Shown here piece by piece: positions 2,103 through 36,040 of a stretch of 64,000 bases of DNA (positions are counted from its first letter, which is position 1; each line of letters begins with the position of its first letter). The stretch is from Thermoanaerobaculia bacterium (GTDB lineage: Bacteria; Acidobacteriota; Thermoanaerobaculia; UBA5066). A program made the translations under genes and the position numbers. The notes below the pieces were generated by a model. That model saw only the letters and a program-made list of their open reading frames with translations, was not told the origin of the DNA and did not search any database. The stretch covers positions 1 through 64,000 of the forward strand of contig JAJVIN010000054.1 of NCBI GenBank assembly GCA_022071945.1. Direction: 5' to 3'.

Positions 2103-5100
2103 TCACGGCCTCAACCCCAAGTTCTTCGTGTCGTTCGTCTTGTTGTCGATGCGGGTGGCGAGGGCAATCACGCGGCCCGTGCTCCCCGGCTTCGGCCGGA
2201 TCTGGCACATCACGTTTGCCCGGTCCTTCTCTCCAATCGCAAATCCCGCGTCTCCAAAGATGTCGTTGATCTGCCGTTGCTCGTAGCCGTTGAGCTTCAG
2301 CGTCAGCTTCCCTGTAGCCGCCACTCGCCGCTGAGTCTTCTCCCAGATCGTCACCTCGACCTCCACCGGGTTCCCCGTGATCTCCGTCAGGATGAGATTC
2401 GTCCGCGCTCCGCGCGTCCGGTCCCCCTTCGCCGTCCCCTCCAGCCCCTCCGCGATCAGGATCCGGTTGCTCTCACCCGTCGTCCGCCCGTCGTCGAGGG
2501 TGTGGCTCTCGATGGCGTCCCCGTAGCTCCCGGCGGGTGTCTCCACGTACACGCGGCTCACCACCGACAGTGATGCCGCCTCCGCCTCCACGTGCAGCGG
2601 CCCGAAGGAGGTCAGCGTGGACGGAAGATTGAACACATCCTTCAGCACGTTCTCGAACACATCGATCTGCCTCGGACCCAGCGTCCGCTCCGGACTCGTC
2701 AGGTTCCCCGTGTTCCCCAGGTATGTCAGCCCGTACTTCACGGCCCGGTCCGTGTTGTTCCTCACCTCCACCCGGCTGTTGAACGTCGTCGACGTCACCA
2801 CGCTGGGTAGCGCCAGTACGCTCGCGGAGCCGCTCAGCGGGATCCCCTCGAAGCTCGATGCGTCTCCGCTCCTCCCGTCGATCACCGTTATCAGCGGAGC
2901 GACCGTTCCCGCGGATCCTTCACTCGCCACGATCTCCAAGGCTCCCCCGTTCACCGCGTTGCTCCCGGAAAGCTCTCCGATCGAGAGCTGCGTCTTCGTG
3001 AAGGGGCTCAACGCCCTTTCCGTAGACCCGATGGGCTTCCCGGTCCTGTCGTAGAGGGTGATCGTCACCGACGAGGTCTGCCCCGACGTCTCCGTCAGGA
3101 TCAGGTTCGTCCGGTACGGCGTCGCGTGGTTCACTCCCGTCACCACGTACGGCTTCCCAGAACGGACACCTTCCCCGCTCATGAACACCGGAAGCTGGAA
3201 TCCGAACGAGCCTCCGCCCGACGCCGGAGCATCCACGAAGCTTGTGATCCGGAGCTGTCCCGGGCTGCCCGACCGGATCTCGAGGCTTCCCGATCCCTCC
3301 GTCCCGAACAGCTGCGCCACCGGATCCGTCAGAACCAGGACGTCATTCCCGGGAACGGTCAGCGTGGCCACCTGGACCTTCGTGCAGTCGTACCCATCGG
3401 CCCCCGGCACGTCCGGCGTGTAGTAGAGGTCCGCCTGGATCGTCTCCGGCCCCAGGTTCGTCAGAAGCACCGTGCTCACGAACCGCACGCCTCCCGCTCC
3501 GCTCGCACTCACGAGCGACGGAACGATCCAGCTCGTCTCGCCGGAGGCCAGGAGAGAACGTCCCCGGCACGGGGCCGCCGTCATCGGCCCGGGATCCTCG
3601 ACCAGAACCCGGCTGCTCTTCCCATCGATCGTCCGGAACGTGACATAGGTCTGCCGGGGGAACGACCCTCCCGACTCCCCTCTCAACCGTTCCAGCGCCA
3701 GCCTCACCGTCCGGGTCGCGTTCGGCGGGATTGGAACCGAATTCCAGCCCTTCGGCCAGATGGTGACCCATGGGTCGGGGAGAACGTCCGCCGCCAGATC
3801 CAGCGGCGCGCTTCCCACGTTCTTGATATCCACCGTTAGTTCCGGAGCCACCTCGCCGAGTCCCGCCGGAGCGAACCGGAGTCTCTCGACGGCCTTCCCG
3901 TCCAACTGGATGACCGGAGCAGCCGTCTGCGGCAGTGGGTTCTCTCCCTTGTTACTCGTGACGTTCAGCGAGATCGACGCTTGCGGGAACGCCGTGGTAT
4001 CCGTCGGGTCCTGCGAGTGGATAGAGAGCGTCCCCTCGTACTGCCCCGGCTGGTTCATCGGGACGCCCGAGAACTGCAAGTAGAAGATTCGGATCTCCCC
4101 TGCCCGCAGCGAGAAGAACGTCTCGTTCATGATGAAGAATGGAATCGTCTGCGACGTGTTGAAGTACCCCACGAAGTCCGTCGTTCCCGTGTTCCGGACC
4201 TCCACCTCGAGCTTCGGCAATGGCAATCCCGCCTTCGGCTGCGCGATCACCGTTGCCTTCGGGGGATTCGTCATCGTCAGGAACGGGGGAGCCGCCGACA
4301 CCGAAACCGGCAACGGACTCGACCACGCGCTTCGCGTCCCGCAGGACGCCTGGGCGGCCACCCGATGGAAGTACGTGGTCCTCTCGGCTCCGGTGAGGAC
4401 AAGTGACGTCTCCCGAGTCGTGAAGCTCTCCGCACCCGTGAAGTCGCCGCCCTTGGCCCGTTCGATGCGGTAGATACCGCCCGACTCCACGCCCTCCGCA
4501 GGTGACCACGTCAGCGTGTAGGTCGAACCCTGTTGCGCATTCCCCTTCGTCGACGCGACGCCCGCCGGGATAGCCGGGGTCGCGCACGCGACCGTTGCGA
4601 AGCTCCAGGTCTCCGACAGCGCCGTCCTCGAATCGTCGCACGCGGCATGTGCGACGACCCTCCAGCGGTACGTCCTGCCGGGAGCCAGAGCTACCGGTAG
4701 CTCCATCCCTCTCATCCCCGAAGCGACGAGTCCGTCATCGACGTAGACGTCGTAGCTCGACGCCCCAGCAATCGCACTCCACCTCAGCACGACCTCCGAC
4801 GGGTTTCCCGCACTCGCATTCGACGGCGAGAGGAGCTTCACGCTCTCGGGACCTTCGCAGGTCCCAGAGGTCCTGAACTCCCCTTCCAGAGATGAGGAGG
4901 TCAGCGCGGTATTGCACATGGCGCGGGCCACGACTATCCAGCGATAGGCCGTGCCAGGATTCAGGCCCGTCGCCGTGAACGACCCGGGCGGGACACCGGA
5001 AGCGATCCGGCCAAGCGGGGACGTTCCCGAGCCGAGGTACACGTCGTAGGACGCCGCTCCCGATGCAGCTCCGAACTTCAACGCAGCCGACGTCCCCTGA

Positions 5101-7494: not shown

Positions 7495-10155
7495 TCAGAA
7501 CCCGATGACCGACGACCCCTGGCTTTCGTTCAACGGCAACAAGACCAGCACCTTGGTATCCGCCGTCAAGTTGTCCACGCGGGTCCCGAGGGCGACAACG
7601 GCTCCCTGGCTCGCCGCCGTGGCCGTGACGTCGCAGAGGATGTTCGTCCGGTCCTTACCGCCCGCTCCCAGGGCCGACACGACCCGGTTCAGCTGCAGCT
7701 TCTCGTAGGCCTTCAGCTGGAACGTCCCCTTCCCGATGGGTCCCTGACGCTCCTTGCCCTTCTCGAAGAGCTTGACCTCCACCTCGGATGCCTTTCCCGC
7801 GATCTCGGTCAGGATCAGGTTGGTTCGCGCTCCCCGAAATTCGTTGGTCGAATGCTCGAATCCGTCGGACAGGAGCTGCCTCTTGTTCAGCGCCGTCGTC
7901 AGCGCCGCGGAGTTCAGGGGATAGACCGGGATCGCATCCCCGAACGAGCCGTCGTCGGTATTCGAGTAGACCTTCGAGGACAGAACCAGTGCGCCGATCT
8001 CCGCGTCGACGAAGAGGAGCCCCTGCGCGTCGCCCGTGATCGAGAAGGCCTCCTTCAGGACGCTCTGGTAGGCAACCGTCCTTCTGGCACCAACGGTCAT
8101 CACATCCGTCTTCCGCTCCGACCCCGCTCCGTCGACGAACGTGAGCTGGAACCGGACCGCCCTCGACGTCGGGTTGGTGATCGACACGCTCGATTCGTAG
8201 GGGAACGGTCCCCGTCCGGGCTTCGAGTTGTAGCCGGTCACGACCGTCGGAACAGCCGCCCTGTTCGGCAGCTCTCCCACCTTCAGGACGGGTTTGCGGC
8301 TCGCTGCGTCCGCCAGCTGGGGCCGGCCAACGAGACAGGAGGCATCCTGATTCACCCTGTCGATCACCGTCGCGACGGCCGCCACCGTTCCCGCGCCGTC
8401 TAGAACCGTGACCGAGGCCGCCGCGCCCACCGCCACCCGGCCCGCGAAGATCTCGGAGTCATTCAACCCCGCCTGGAGCTTGGCGTACGGGGGAATCGTC
8501 TTCGTCGTCCGGAACAGCAGGGTTCCGTCAGGCCCGAAAACGCTCACTAGAACCGTGGCGGCCTGGCCAGACGTCTCGGACAGGATCAGGTTCGATCGAT
8601 AGGTCTCGTTCGAGATCAGGCCCGTGACCCAGAGGTCAGTGTTGAGGGCCGCACCCGTGCCCCGCTTCATCACGGGCATCTGGAAGCCGTAGAACCCGCC
8701 CCCTGGCGCCGGTGTGTCGACGACGGAGTCGGCCCGGACCTGGGCGATCTTGTCCGACCGGATCTCGAAGCTGCCGTGCACGACGTCGGCAGGTCCATAC
8801 CCGAAGAGCTTGGCGAGGGGATCCGTGAGAATGAGCGCGTCCGAACCCGGAATCGCGAGGGTCGCCTTCTTGACCTTCGTGCAGTCGAAGCCGCTCGTGC
8901 CGCTCCCATCGTCTCTCGTGAAGTAGATGTCGACCGTGGCGGCATCCCTGCCGATGTTGCTGATGAGGAGTTTCGAGACGAAGACGACCCGGCGCCCACC
9001 GACCTGATAGTCCGCCGACACAACGGAGGGAACGATCAACGAACTGCTCTCCGCCAGCAGAGCTGTCCGAACGTCACAGGCTCCTCCCGATTTGTCGTCC
9101 AAATCCTGAAACTGGACGCGACTCGATTTGCCATCCTGCGTTCGTACCGTGAGGAACGCGTATCGCGGCAGGACGCCGCCCGCCTGACCCTGGATCCGGC
9201 GGGAGGAGACCTGAAACGTTCGTTTCTCTCCGGGCCGTAGCGGGAGTGCGTTCCATCCGGGGGACGGGACGAGCCACCCGTCTGGTCCCGTCTCGGCCGC
9301 GATGGCGAGGTCGGTTGATCGAGTGTTCGTGACCGAGATCGTCATCGGGGGCGGATCCGAACCCGGCTCGGTCGCCTGAAAGGAAACGAACTCGGTCTCG
9401 AAGACCGGCGCCGGTTCATCCGCATCGGGTGCCGGCTTGCGAGAGGCCACCGGTTTCGGCGCCACGGTCAGGTTCACCAGGGCCCACGGATAGGGATAGT
9501 CAGGAATCGTCCCCGCCGACTCGATAGTCAGGAGGCCCTGGTAGGTTCCAGGCGTGTTGACGAAGCTCGAGTAGAAATCGATCGAGAACGTCTTCGCCTC
9601 TCCGGGTCCGAGCGTCACGATCGAATCCGGAAACGTGAAGAACGGCGCACCCTTGGGGCTGAGGTACCCTGAGAAGGGTGTCCCGCCCAGATTTCGGACC
9701 TCGAAGCTGGCCGACGAGGCAGCATCGCCGACTGTCCTGACGACGGCGGGCGGCTGAGAAGAGAAGATGACGACCGGGGATCCGTCCACGATCCGGATCG
9801 TCACCGGATCAGACGGCTCTCCCTGGGTTCCGCAGGACTGCACGGCGCGCACCCGGTGCAGGAAGTTCCCCGCAACCTTCGACTTCAAGGACGCGGCCGT
9901 CGATGTCGACGTGAAGGACTCGACCCCGGTCTGGAACGTTGCGTCGGCAGTACGCTCCAGAAGGTAAGTCGAACCTGACTGAAGACCTGCTGGCGCCGTC
10001 CACGCCAAGACGTACGACTGATCCTTGGCTGTCGGAAGGTTGGAGAACAGGCTGATGGCAGGCTTCCCCGGTGCAGGGCACTGGCCAATGGCGGGTGCAC
10101 ACACACAGGAAGCCATGAGCATCACACAGCACGAGACGAATCGCAGTGCTCCCAT
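7495..10155 (-). CDS. Secreted Ig-like module protein without an NHL propeller
   Basis: This is an 886-residue exported protein. Two in-frame ATGs lie at 10161 and 10155. The AGGAG touches the first and sits 6 bases before the second, so 10155 is preferred. A signal peptide ends near PAIGQ. One fibronectin-III-like domain follows (SYVLAWTAP, LLERTAD), then an ASPM/Hydin-type Ig domain (residues about 130-230) and the same C-terminal module as the NHL paralogues: a TDPLAKLFG strand, repeated NLILSE/NLILTE strands and a final DNLTADTK. It ends in VIGF, like the PIGF end of two giant paralogues. It looks like an NHL protein minus its propeller. It is the first gene of the minus-strand trio and is divergent from the kinase gene. 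The function is unknown; surface localisation is inferred. Confidence 0.87.
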   Translation of the reverse strand: MGALRFVSCCVMLMASCVCAPAIGQCPAPGKPAISLFSNLPTAKDQSYVLAWTAPAGLQSGSTYLLERTADATFQTGVESFTSTSTAASLKSKVAGNFLHRVRAVQSCGTQGEPSDPVTIRIVDGSPVVIFSSQPPAVVRTVGDAASSASFEVRNLGGTPFSGYLSPKGAPFFTFPDSIVTLGPGEAKTFSIDFYSSFVNTPGTYQGLLTIESAGTIPDYPYPWALVNLTVAPKPVASRKPAPDADEPAPVFETEFVSFQATEPGSDPPPMTISVTNTRSTDLAIAAETGPDGWLVPSPGWNALPLRPGEKRTFQVSSRRIQGQAGGVLPRYAFLTVRTQDGKSSRVQFQDLDDKSGGACDVRTALLAESSSLIVPSVVSADYQVGGRRVVFVSKLLISNIGRDAATVDIYFTRDDGSGTSGFDCTKVKKATLAIPGSDALILTDPLAKLFGYGPADVVHGSFEIRSDKIAQVRADSVVDTPAPGGGFYGFQMPVMKRGTGAALNTDLWVTGLISNETYRSNLILSETSGQAATVLVSVFGPDGTLLFRTTKTIPPYAKLQAGLNDSEIFAGRVAVGAAASVTVLDGAGTVAAVATVIDRVNQDASCLVGRPQLADAASRKPVLKVGELPNRAAVPTVVTGYNSKPGRGPFPYESSVSITNPTSRAVRFQLTFVDGAGSERKTDVMTVGARRTVAYQSVLKEAFSITGDAQGLLFVDAEIGALVLSSKVYSNTDDGSFGDAIPVYPLNSAALTTALNKRQLLSDGFEHSTNEFRGARTNLILTEIAGKASEVEVKLFEKGKERQGPIGKGTFQLKAYEKLQLNRVVSALGAGGKDRTNILCDVTATAASQGAVVALGTRVDNLTADTKVLVLLPLNESQGSSVIGF

Positions 10156-28773: not shown

Positions 28774-29316
28774 TCAGGGACCTTTCTTCGCGACGCCCAA
28801 CTCGCCGAGTTTCCTAGCGACGTCGGGCCCGGCGGTTGCCGGCTTCACTTCACGGTCGACGTGGAGAAGCTTGCCATCCTTGCCGATGTAGAAAGTCCAG
28901 CGGAAGGGGACCTTGCGCTCCGCGTTCACGACGCCATAAGCCTTCGCGACCGAACCATCGACGTCCGCGAGCATCGGGTAGTCGGCGTCGAGGGACTTCG
29001 CGAACTTCGTGATCTCCTCGACGGGATCGATGCTCGCCGCGAAGTAGGCGACGTCGAACTTCCGGATTTCTGTGCCGCTCTCACGGAGCGACTTGCATTC
29101 CTGCGTTCACCCACCCGTGAAGGCCTTGGGGAACCAGGCCAGGACGACGACACGCTTGCCAGCGTGCTCGGCCAGAGTGTGGGCCTTGCCGTCGGAGCCG
29201 GTCAGCGAGAAGGGCGGGGCCTTGTCTCCCGCCGCGAGGGATCTGGCCCCCTCCTGGGCCGGGGCAGGGCCGAGCGCAAAGAGCAATGCGGCCGTGAGGG
29301 GCATCGAGAGACGCAT
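28774..29316 (-). CDS. Peroxiredoxin-like selenoprotein (in-frame UGA at active site)
   Basis: ATG 29316 has AGGAGG 5 bases upstream. The first 20 residues are a signal peptide (PLTAALLFALGPAPAQ), so the protein acts outside the cytoplasm. The AhpC/TSA fold follows: GDKAPPFSLTG, VVVLAWFPKAFTGG. At codon 70 (29107-29109) there is UGA where the family has the peroxidatic Cys; the frame continues TQECKSLRESG and then AAS-IDP, MLADVDGSVAKAYGVV and FYIGKDGKLLHVD to the true stop at 28774. Cys74 could resolve the selenenic acid. A 7-base-pair hairpin lies just after the UGA. Both halves are conserved protein, so decay is unlikely. The 180-residue length fits a single-domain peroxiredoxin. It is separated from the upstream cytochrome by a terminator. 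Confidence 0.87.
29074..29092 (-). promoter_or_regulatory. Candidate bacterial SECIS hairpin of the peroxiredoxin gene
   Basis: Fourteen bases after the UGA the message reads GTCGCTC, loop CGTGA, GAGCGGC: a 7-base-pair stem (one U-G pair) with a 5-base loop containing GU. Bacterial SelB recognises a short stem-loop right after the UGA, with G and U in the apical loop; the spacing here is similar to that of fdhF. Confidence 0.6.
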
Positions 29317-29549: not shown

Positions 29550-31604
29550 TCACCGGGAGTGAGACTTCGAAACCGACCACTCGGAGTTCGGCCCGTGGCA
29601 GACCGCACAGGACTCACCGATCTTCGAGGTGTTGATGTTCGCGTGGCTCAGGTGGTCCTTGGAGTCGTGGCAGCCGGTGCAGGAGGTCGTTCCGGGGCCC
29701 TGCACGCTCATGTAGTCGCGAGGAGTCGGCGTCTCGAGGTTCCCTCCGGGCGGAAGGTTGTAGGTCGAGCCGGTGTGGCAGGCGCTGCAGTTGCGGCGGT
29801 CGCCCGGGTAGCGGACTTCGTTGTAGTTGTGACGGCTCTGACCGTTGCCGTACACGGTGAAGTCCTGCGCGAGTTCCTCGCCCGTGTGGATCCGGTGGAT
29901 CATCCGCTTCATGTCGACGGACTCCGGATCCCCGTTCCCCGCGGGGCGCTGGTTCCGGTCGTCCTTCAGCGGGTTGTGGCAGATCACGCACTCTTCCATG
30001 ACGAGGCGCTGCCCGCCATGGAGGGCCAGCTGATCATGGCAGCGATTACAGAGGGCCATCGAGGCCACGCTCCGCCGGTTCACGACGGGCTCGCCCGCCT
30101 TGATCGCACCGTACCAGATCGGGTTCGTCGCGCACTCGCGCACGCTCGTGTCGGCCGTGCCATCGCCACGCACCAGGCTGACGTTGCGGTAGGCATCCAG
30201 GCTGACCGTCCAGGTACCAACGGCGTCGGCCGGGATGGGATTCGTGAAGGTGTACGCCGTATTGCCGGTCGCGGCATCGAAGACGCCCGTCGCGAGGCCG
30301 GACTCACGCCAGTAGGCCTTGTAGTCCGCCGTCGGACCCGCGAGGATGGGGGAGAAGCTGTTCAGCTTCGTGGCGTTGACGGCGGTGCCGTCGCCGTTGG
30401 TGACCTTGAAGGTGGCGGTCGGCTTCTGGCCCGGGACGAAGTTCGTGACGCTCACGATGGTGGCCTTCAGGCCCTTCAGCTGCGTGGACTTCACCGGGAT
30501 GACGTGCGCGCCCTTCACCGAGATGTCGAACTCGGCGTTCATCGTGGCGCCGTGGCAGTTCTTACAGGCCAGGTCGCTGATCTGGGGCAGTCCGCCGCAG
30601 TGATTCTCGCCCGTCGTCCAGTTGATGTTGTCGTGGCAGGAACCGCAGACGGCGCGCGTCGGACGCGTGTACCAGATGCTCGCCTCGGTAGCCGTCGTCT
30701 GGTGGCAGGTCTCGCAGTTGCGGATGTCCTGGGGATAGGCCACTGTCGAGTAATCGGCTCCAGCGATATAGGGCTTCCCGCCGACAACGCTCGGTAGATC
30801 CTTGCCGCGGTGGAGCTTGTGGAAGAGGACCTTCCCGTCGAACGTTTCACCGCTCGTCGCGTCCTTGCTGATCGAGGCGTTGTGGCAGAGCATGCAGTTC
30901 TTGGCGTCGCGCCGGCTTCCACCGTGCTCGGCGAGCGGGTCGTGGCAGCGGTTGCACGTGGCCGTCGTGTTCATCGCGCTCCAGACGGCAGCTGGCGTCC
31001 CGCCGTCGGCCCGCAGCTCCTGGAAAACGTTCGGGGCGTAGTAGTTCTTCTCCAGGATGCCCGACATGTTCCGGGATCCGTAGGCGCCCAGGGTATTGGT
31101 CGCCGCGACGTCCATGTCAGCCGGCAGAGTCGTTCCGAACGTGTACTTGTACCGTCCGATCGCGACCTCGGTGAACGTGCCGCCCTGGTCAGCGGAGGGA
31201 TTCGTCACGCCGTTTCTCGTCCGGAAGGTGTAGGGCACGTAGTAGCGGGTCGTGGGGTTCCACTTGGCGAGGATGAAGCTGACCGAGACCGGTCCGGGAG
31301 TGGTCGCCCCAAGGCGATCGAGGGGCTGCTTGAGATCGTCCGTGATCGTGAACTCGACGACGGGCTTCTTGCCCGGCGCCAAGTCCGTCACGCCGAGGAT
31401 CGTGACGTTCAGCCCCGGACGGATCCAGGCGATCTGGTCGGCCGACAGGAAGTACTCCTGCGAATTGGGAGTAAAGGCTGACGGAGGGCCAATCTTCGCT
31501 CCATCTCCTATGTTCTCCGAGATGGCCACGGCGGATTGGTGTGAGAGGACGGCAAAGGCTGCGGCGGAGAGGACCAGGAAGAAACGACGCTGAATCGGGT
31601 GCAC
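29550..31604 (-). CDS. OmcA/MtrC-family decahaem c-type cytochrome
   Basis: This is a 684-residue exported cytochrome with exactly ten CXXCH motifs in two groups of five: CNRCH (residue 217), CMLCH, CETCH, CGSCH, CKNCH, then after a beta domain CNRCH, CVICH, CSACH, CTGCH, CAVCH. This beta / pentahaem / beta / pentahaem order is that of MtrC and OmcA, cell-surface reductases passing electrons to minerals or other extracellular acceptors. Start is GTG 31604 with GGGAGGG upstream. The signal peptide ends near QSAVA, without the lipobox cysteine of the Shewanella proteins. No MtrA-like cytochrome or MtrB-like porin is nearby. It ends in a terminator at 29389-29417 and appears monocistronic. Confidence 0.95.
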   Translation of the reverse strand: MHPIQRRFFLVLSAAAFAVLSHQSAVAISENIGDGAKIGPPSAFTPNSQEYFLSADQIAWIRPGLNVTILGVTDLAPGKKPVVEFTITDDLKQPLDRLGATTPGPVSVSFILAKWNPTTRYYVPYTFRTRNGVTNPSADQGGTFTEVAIGRYKYTFGTTLPADMDVAATNTLGAYGSRNMSGILEKNYYAPNVFQELRADGGTPAAVWSAMNTTATCNRCHDPLAEHGGSRRDAKNCMLCHNASISKDATSGETFDGKVLFHKLHRGKDLPSVVGGKPYIAGADYSTVAYPQDIRNCETCHQTTATEASIWYTRPTRAVCGSCHDNINWTTGENHCGGLPQISDLACKNCHGATMNAEFDISVKGAHVIPVKSTQLKGLKATIVSVTNFVPGQKPTATFKVTNGDGTAVNATKLNSFSPILAGPTADYKAYWRESGLATGVFDAATGNTAYTFTNPIPADAVGTWTVSLDAYRNVSLVRGDGTADTSVRECATNPIWYGAIKAGEPVVNRRSVASMALCNRCHDQLALHGGQRLVMEECVICHNPLKDDRNQRPAGNGDPESVDMKRMIHRIHTGEELAQDFTVYGNGQSRHNYNEVRYPGDRRNCSACHTGSTYNLPPGGNLETPTPRDYMSVQGPGTTSCTGCHDSKDHLSHANINTSKIGESCAVCHGPNSEWSVSKSHSR

Positions 31605-34693: not shown

Positions 34694-36040
34694 TCACGAC
34701 ATCGAGGCGAGCTTCTTCTTCAGGGACTCGATCATGCGCTCCGATCTCTGCCCCTGGGGGAGCCCCTCGGCCAGAGCGAGCGCTTCCTCGAGGGTCTTCT
34801 TCGCCGCCGCGGGATCCCCCTTGGCCGCGTAAATGTCCGACCGGACTCTCAGGACGACGATCTTCCGCGGCCCGTACACCTTCTGGAGCGCCCGGTCGGA
34901 AGCGGCGAGCGCCTCTTCGTGCTTGCCGAGAGCCTTGTAGGCGGAAGCGAGCCTGGCGGGCGGGTTGTAGTCGTCCGGGAGGTCGCGCTCGGAGGCCTCG
35001 AGCATCGGGATGGCCTTCTCGGGAGTCCCGAGGGCCAGGTAGGCCGAGAGCCGGTGGGAGTCATAGACGGCGCGCGCGTCCGGGGTCTTCGCGTCGGCGG
35101 CCGCCTTCTCGAGGAACGCGGCCCACTCACCGGCGATCTTCTTGACGCCGGCCTCGTCACCGGCACGATCGCGGGACTCGATCAGGGACCCGTACACCGC
35201 GGAGCGGTCATCCGGCGCAATCGCGGTCTTCGAGTCCGCGATCACATCGGCCGCATACCTCTCGAACTCCGCCACGAGTGCGGCCTTGCCGGTGTTGTCC
35301 GGCTTCAACTCGAGGGCGCAGTCGAGCCCGGAGGCCGCAACGTTGGCGGCGGACGCCGTCTTCTTCAACTGGGGCCACGCCTGGCTGGCGGCCTTTGCGC
35401 AGGCCGCCGAGTCCCCCGCCCGGCCGTACGCGTAAACGAGCGACTCCGAGACGCGCCCCCAGCTCGCCCAGGACTTGGGCACCTTCGCGAGGAGGTCCCG
35501 GTAGGCCGCCGCGGCCTCGGTGTACTGCCCGGCCGCAAACCACCGGTCTGCCTCGGCCAGGGCCTTCTCGAGCCCTTCGCTCCGGCTGGCCACGTTCCGG
35601 GCTCCGTCTTTCAGCATCTTGAGGATCTGATCCACGGTGGCCCCGCCCGCCCAGCGTAGAACCGGAGCCTCTGTTACCGGGTCGACGATGAAGAAGGTCG
35701 GGTAGTTCTCGATCGAGAACGTCTTGCGGAAGCGGGCGTTCTGGGGCTTTTCCGTGTCCATCGCGAGCCAGACGAACTGTCCGGCCTGCCGCCCGAGAGC
35801 CGGGTCCGTGAAGACCGTGGCCCTCATCGAGCGGCACGTGTGTCACCAGGGGGCCCAGGCCTCGATGAAGATCGGGAGCTTCTTCGCCCTCGCCTCCGAG
35901 AGCGCCTTCTGATAGTCGTCCTCGATGAAGGGGACGGACTTCTTCTGCGTCTTCTCTGGGGCGGGGACCTTGGTGTCTGCCGCCGCGGGGAACGTCAGCA
36001 CGAGCGCCGCGAGGAGCGCGGCGAAAACGGTACGTCTCAT
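34694..36040 (-). CDS. Thioredoxin-like selenoprotein with UxxC site and TPR-type C-terminus
   Basis: ATG 36040 starts a signal peptide (TVFAALLAALVLTFPAAA), so the product is exported. A thioredoxin fold follows: ALSEARAKKLPIFIEAWAPW, then UGA at codon 66 (35843-35845), then HTCRSMRATVFTDPAL and YPTFFIVDP with the cis-Pro. Thioredoxins of this type read WAPWCHTC, so UGA stands for the nucleophilic Cys and gives U66-x-x-C69. The frame continues uninterrupted to 34694, 448 residues in all. Residues about 165-440 are helical TPR-like repeats, probably a partner-binding platform. A hairpin follows the UGA. An ordinary ORF call splits the gene into 65 and 377 residues. It lies 35 bases after the GGDEF gene. 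Confidence 0.87.
35816..35838 (-). promoter_or_regulatory. Candidate SECIS hairpin of the thioredoxin-TPR gene
   Basis: Four bases after the UGA a hairpin can form: CGTG/CACG, CC/GG and CTC/GAG stacked with two single-base bulges and a GAT loop, nine pairs in all. The loop lacks the GU of the E. coli element, so the assignment is weaker than for the peroxiredoxin gene. Confidence 0.4.

Follow-up and report, generated by a model that had tools for sequence, protein, structure and literature searches.

A probable selenoprotein family uniting an exported UxxC thioredoxin domain with a TPR domain in Acidobacteriota, Candidatus Eisenbacteria and Myxococcota

Results and discussion

A gene on the minus strand of the window, the whole 64,000-nucleotide stretch of Thermoanaerobaculia contig JAJVIN010000054.1 that was analysed, in all likelihood encodes a selenoprotein in which an exported thioredoxin domain, with selenocysteine (Sec) in the first position of its active site, is followed by a helical TPR domain (Table 1). 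The bacterial selenoproteome thereby gains a well-supported family whose domain architecture is new, from phyla whose selenoproteins have been little studied. Genes of this type are readily annotated as truncated or split.

Table 1. Features of the thioredoxin-TPR gene, in window positions
Feature	Position	Strand	Remarks
Complete gene, probable exported thioredoxin-TPR selenoprotein	34694..36040	(-)	448 aa, ATG start, UGA stop 34694-34696
UGA for predicted Sec66, first position of UxxC (WAPW-U-HTC)	35843..35845	(-)	codon 66
N-terminal signal peptide, MRRTVFAALLAALVLTFPAAAD, ~22 residues	35975..36040	(-)	extent judged by eye from sequence
Thioredoxin_7 / thioredoxin domain, residues ~34-144	35609..35941	(-)	PF13899 E=3e-11, PF00085 E=5e-7, predicted structure
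Helical TPR domain, residues ~155-448	34697..35578	(-)	Pfam TPR_12/14/19, AF2 pLDDT mostly >90, TPR structure matches
Candidate bSECIS region	35795..35842	(-)	5-bp stem, 8-nt loop GCCACGGU, -13.1 kcal/mol

The recoded reading frame

The earlier note had described this locus as an exported thioredoxin-TPR fusion with a UGA in place of the first active-site Cys. Translation of 36040-34694 (-) with UGA read as Sec agreed with this description and with the coordinates, giving a single product with one internal UGA, which begins with the hydrophobic signal listed in Table 1, carries its active site within FIEAWAPW-U-HTCRSM, has its thioredoxin match at residues 40-143 and continues into TPR repeats. 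The frame stays open for 382 codons beyond the UGA, for which the chance at the local base composition is about 1e-4. When all in-frame TGA codons of the window were screened without bias for coding-like GC3 on both sides, seven sites passed, two of them in recognisable genes, namely the thioredoxin-TPR gene and a peroxiredoxin gene (29107-29109), in agreement with the count of two such genes within 7 kb in the earlier note. The remaining five sites, which have no recognisable protein context, were taken as antisense or shadow frames.

Conservation of the UGA codon and its exchange with cysteine

Four orthologues with 52-54% identity were found in 14 genomes of the host's taxonomic family, three with a single TGA and one (genome G006) with WAPWCHSC. 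All four keep a full-length frame, and independently degraded halves in sister strains, which had been named beforehand as a sign that the selenoprotein reading was wrong, were not seen. A profile search found the protein in 19 of 396 genomes of the phylum, while a scan of genome contigs found 34 loci across Acidobacteriota, Candidatus Eisenbacteria and Myxococcota. Of the 51 loci with a readable active site, which include the window's own locus and some very close relatives that are not independent events, 30 have TGA at the aligned active-site codon, 21 have TGC or TGT, and none has UAA or UAG. Alignment with Cys-containing homologues, proposed earlier as a check, thus placed the UGA at the first active-site Cys, 21 of the 51 loci carrying Cys at that same codon.

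Among the Cys forms are those of Myxococcus xanthus, Corallococcus, Archangium and three Acidobacteriota, and UGA is retained in some Myxococcota MAGs. A maximum-likelihood tree of 48 rows needed five label changes, at least four of which were forced by well-supported branches, and one switch falls inside a single genus. Sec and Cys have therefore been exchanged repeatedly, and these switches, together with Cys forms in the cultured and genetically tractable M. xanthus, provide a clean comparative system, suited to asking what benefit selenium brings to an exported oxidoreductase.

Selection on the sequence following the UGA was assessed from dN/dS (Nei-Gojobori) over 381-384 codons past position 66 in close pairs of loci (L018/L019, L020/L021 and L070/L071). 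Values were 0.13-0.22 for these three pairs and 0.13-0.26 across the close pairs including Sec forms, a Cys-Cys pair from Myxococcus fell in this range at 0.21, and dN/dS before position 66 was similar to that after it. As these values are well below 1, the part after the UGA is not sequence lying behind a true stop and is under purifying selection. The same data refute a pseudogene or a sequencing error, under which a thioredoxin-TPR gene would have been interrupted by a nonsense UGA. While the failure to find a convincing SECIS (see below) could be held in its favour, the same UGA stands in 30 loci from three phyla, is never replaced by UAA or UAG and is followed by constrained sequence, which leaves this explanation a vanishingly small probability.

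In G006 (L020/L087), the sole Cys-form species of its genus (g3), the thioredoxin-TPR part lacks a signal peptide of its own and is fused in frame to an upstream HExxH metallopeptidase, giving a 1092-codon frame; its three UGA-form sister species carry this peptidase as a gene of its own, directly upstream. Clustering of flanking ORFs, a coarse approach given the shadow ORFs of GC-rich DNA, found no gene neighbour common across phyla that would indicate clients.

Selenocysteine machinery

The host genome (6.17 Mb, 96% complete) encodes SelB (PF09107 and TIGR00475), a tRNA-Sec with a UCA anticodon (Rfam 64 bits against a cut-off of 47, also found by ARAGORN), SelA and two SelD genes. An absence of selB or selC had been offered in the earlier note as a means of refutation, and this failed, SelB, tRNA-Sec, SelA and SelD all being present; the selenoprotein reading is thus supported both by the Sec genes of the host genome and by the full-length frames in sister species. 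Among the 51 genomes with homologues, tRNA-Sec was detected in 44 and SelB scored above cut-off in 45. One or both were present in the genomes of 29 of the 30 UGA-form loci, the exception being MAG G432, a partial match of the UGA form in which neither was seen. Within the phylum sample SelB was found in all 16 UGA-form genomes, as against 254 of 396 overall, a comparison uncorrected for kinship.

The presence of this machinery also bears on whether UGA might be reassigned, for instance to Trp, or read through non-specifically, a reading that has the open frame alone in its favour. UGA is not globally reassigned, since the thioredoxin-TPR gene itself terminates at an ordinary UGA, as do 11 of the 30 Sec-form homologues; moreover, the homologues carry Cys and not Trp, and tRNA-Sec and SelB are available. 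Reassignment or non-specific readthrough is thus highly improbable.

Loss of the Sec trait was considered as an account of the Cys form and rejected as a general one, most Cys-form Myxococcaceae keeping both tRNA-Sec and SelB. In genome G006, which is 99% complete, tRNA-Sec is retained and no SelB match exceeds the cut-off; in G240 SelB is present, and the threshold applied revealed no tRNA-Sec.

One of the two SelD genes of the host (L011, G000:C37:45501-46466) is itself of the Sec type, with an in-frame TGA at the active site (FASAAG-U-ACKLG), and its GUACK site matches UxxK, the motif given for Sec-type SelD (PMC13188914). The second (L010) lies beside it; its SelD domain is part of a frame of 750 codons that no stop interrupts. 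In an Acidobacteriota MAG (L101), tRNA-Sec (8905-9002) lies 3.8 kb from the thioredoxin-TPR gene (3861-5081), and in G042:C63 and G055:C9 the two are on the same contig about 27 kb apart; linkage of tRNA-Sec with the thioredoxin-TPR gene is possible in these three cases.

Search for a SECIS element

The bSECIS model specifies a loop of 3-9 nt with G in the first two loop positions, a spacing of 16-37 and an MFE <= -7.5, and a subset of selenoprotein genes fails it (PMC13188914). The hairpin of the window gene (Table 1), at a spacing of 21 nt, lies within this model, as do about half of the synonymous shuffles of the gene. Across the family, 19 of the 30 UGA genes fit the model, where synonymous shuffles would lead one to expect 15.3, and the mean MFE z against such shuffles was -0.18 for UGA genes and +0.35 for Cys genes, which is non-discriminating. 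RNAalifold gave no consensus fold after the UGA across the family. The SECIS-like hairpin of the thioredoxin-TPR gene is not distinguishable from chance, an outcome that we do not read as negative evidence.

Domain composition and predicted structure

The window protein exceeded the cut-off for Thioredoxin_7 (PF13899), a model that all 42 family members examined with Pfam matched, and several Pfam TPR models matched the C-terminal part. An AF2 model, built from a 42-row alignment with Cys substituted for Sec, had a mean pLDDT of 93 and a pTM of 0.88, and consisted of a thioredoxin fold over residues ~34-150 followed by antiparallel helices to the C-terminus, which make up about 300 residues of TPR. 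In comparisons with VIA-align, the thioredoxin half lay near DsbD-gamma, thioredoxins and thiol proteins exported by Bacteroides (Z ~15-16), and the helical part near TPR superhelices, LGN among them (Z 17-18), although repeats and helices readily score high and LGN-type matches indicate fold class only.

W62, W65, U/C66, C69 and P114 (the cis-Pro position) are invariant in the 42 sequences, in all of which C241 is likewise conserved, with C214 present in 38. Residues 66, 69, 214 and 241 are the only chalcogen residues of the window protein. Cys214 and Cys241 lie in adjacent helices (H211-225 and H231-243) of the AF2 model and may be joined in a structural disulfide or act as an additional redox centre. 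Most homologues have an N-terminal signal peptide or, in Myxococcota, a lipobox such as LVAC or LLAC, as judged by eye, and export is therefore predicted to be a family trait.

Comparison with known selenoproteins and redox proteins

Selenoproteins with a thioredoxin fold and a UxxC motif are as such well known. Sec thioredoxin (UxxC, PF00085) and the thiol:disulfide interchange selenoproteins (PF13098) likewise have a thioredoxin fold with Sec first in the CxxC motif; however, their domain is Trx or Trx_2 without a TPR arm, whereas the present family combines Trx_7 with about 300 residues of TPR and is predicted to be exported. The Trx7/PDZ (seleno)protein NF041199 also places Thioredoxin_7 in a two-domain (seleno)protein, but its second domain is PDZ and not TPR, its Sec is given as CxxU, in the second position, and its cut-off of 300 was not reached by the window protein (16.4 bits) or by an orthologue (20.6). 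With the rhodanese/DsbD-fusion TsoB (NF045694) there is a common DsbD-gamma-like thioredoxin domain (30 bits), while the full-length architecture differs and the cut-off of 805 bits was not reached. The DsbD gamma domain is among the best-matching folds for the thioredoxin half (Z ~15, 21-22% identity); DsbD, however, has a membrane domain, which the thioredoxin-TPR protein lacks, being a separate soluble or lipid-anchored protein.

No NCBIfam model was passed by the family, Trx7/PDZ and TsoB being the nearest of the selenoprotein models, no thioredoxin-TPR entry is present among the 119 prokaryotic selenoprotein families and subfamilies of a 2026 review (PMC13188914), and a text search of the accessible literature found no described thioredoxin-TPR selenoprotein, although single database records may still annotate Sec. 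The family is absent from the current catalogue of bacterial selenoproteins, its architecture being new and its UxxC chemistry known.

The order of an N-terminal thioredoxin domain and a C-terminal TPR domain is shared with CnoX/YbbN, for which redox and holdase roles have been proposed. CnoX is cytoplasmic and has CxxC or SxxC without Sec, in contrast to the UxxC and predicted export of the present family; the window protein has a signal peptide, and most homologues have a signal peptide or lipobox (by eye). E. coli YbbN/CnoX (3qou) was the third Foldseek match with both domains aligned, but its domain arrangement appears to differ from that of the AF2 model (TMq 0.21, rmsd 25.6 A). Caulobacter CnoX is both a holdase and a reductase (PMC6282202), and by analogy the TPR arm might hold unfolded envelope proteins while Sec66 shields client thiols from oxidation. 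Against such an exported chaperedoxin stand both the apparently differing domain arrangement and its location, as the periplasm is not known to have a GroEL or DnaK to take over clients. We consider this role attractive but somewhat unlikely; it concerns function and is compatible with the selenoprotein conclusion.

Proposed function

In the mechanism that we infer, SelB would bring Sec-tRNA(Sec) to the codon-66 UGA, translation would run on to the real stop and the signal peptide would export the product. In the periplasm the Sec66 selenol would attack a client disulfide and Cys69 would resolve it, as in UxxC thioredoxins, these roles being assigned from thioredoxin chemistry, in which a Sec at the first position of UxxC is the attacking nucleophile. 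The TPR arm would bind a client or partner, and the oxidised U-C pair would most likely be re-reduced by the DsbD electron relay. Reduction seems the likelier direction because the thioredoxin half resembles DsbD-gamma and thioredoxin. A DsbD-type membrane domain is encoded in the host genome at G000:C43:10077-10709, with an adjoining thioredoxin-like match on the same strand (C43:9624-9875), and the predicted pair would fit a complete DsbD electron relay. The likeliest function, though a tentative one, is that of a selenol reductase in the periplasm that receives electrons from DsbD and holds its clients on the TPR arm.

An envelope oxidase or isomerase resembling DsbA or DsbC would also be exported, with a thioredoxin fold and a helical arm, and the nearest solved sequence, 2kuc, is annotated as a 'putative disulphide-isomerase'. 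The other close profile and fold matches, however, are DsbD-gamma and thioredoxins, both reducing proteins, and a selenol at the first active-site position generally favours reduction. An oxidase or isomerase, which would equally leave the selenoprotein conclusion intact, is therefore doubtful. A further, rather unlikely proposal is a widespread but uncatalogued envelope selenol chaperedoxin of Acidobacteriota, with a Cys form in Myxococcaceae including M. xanthus, in which the UxxC site and Cys241 of the TPR arm would form a redox relay repairing exported proteins.

The peroxiredoxin gene and its neighbour

The exported peroxiredoxin of the window (28774-29316 (-), PF00578 E=7e-29) has its UGA, FTGG-U-TQEC, at the position expected for the peroxidatic Cys, and is very probably the other, first UGA selenoprotein of the earlier note. 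A TGA-interrupted orthologue was found in six other genomes of the taxonomic family, with 69-81% identity. Its UGA is followed by a clean 7-bp bSECIS-type hairpin with the loop CGUGA, a signal of a clarity that the thioredoxin-TPR gene lacks. Adjoining the peroxiredoxin gene is one for a 684-aa protein (29550-31604 (-)) with repeated CxxCH motifs, by eye a multihaem cytochrome c of the OmcA/MtrC-like kind.
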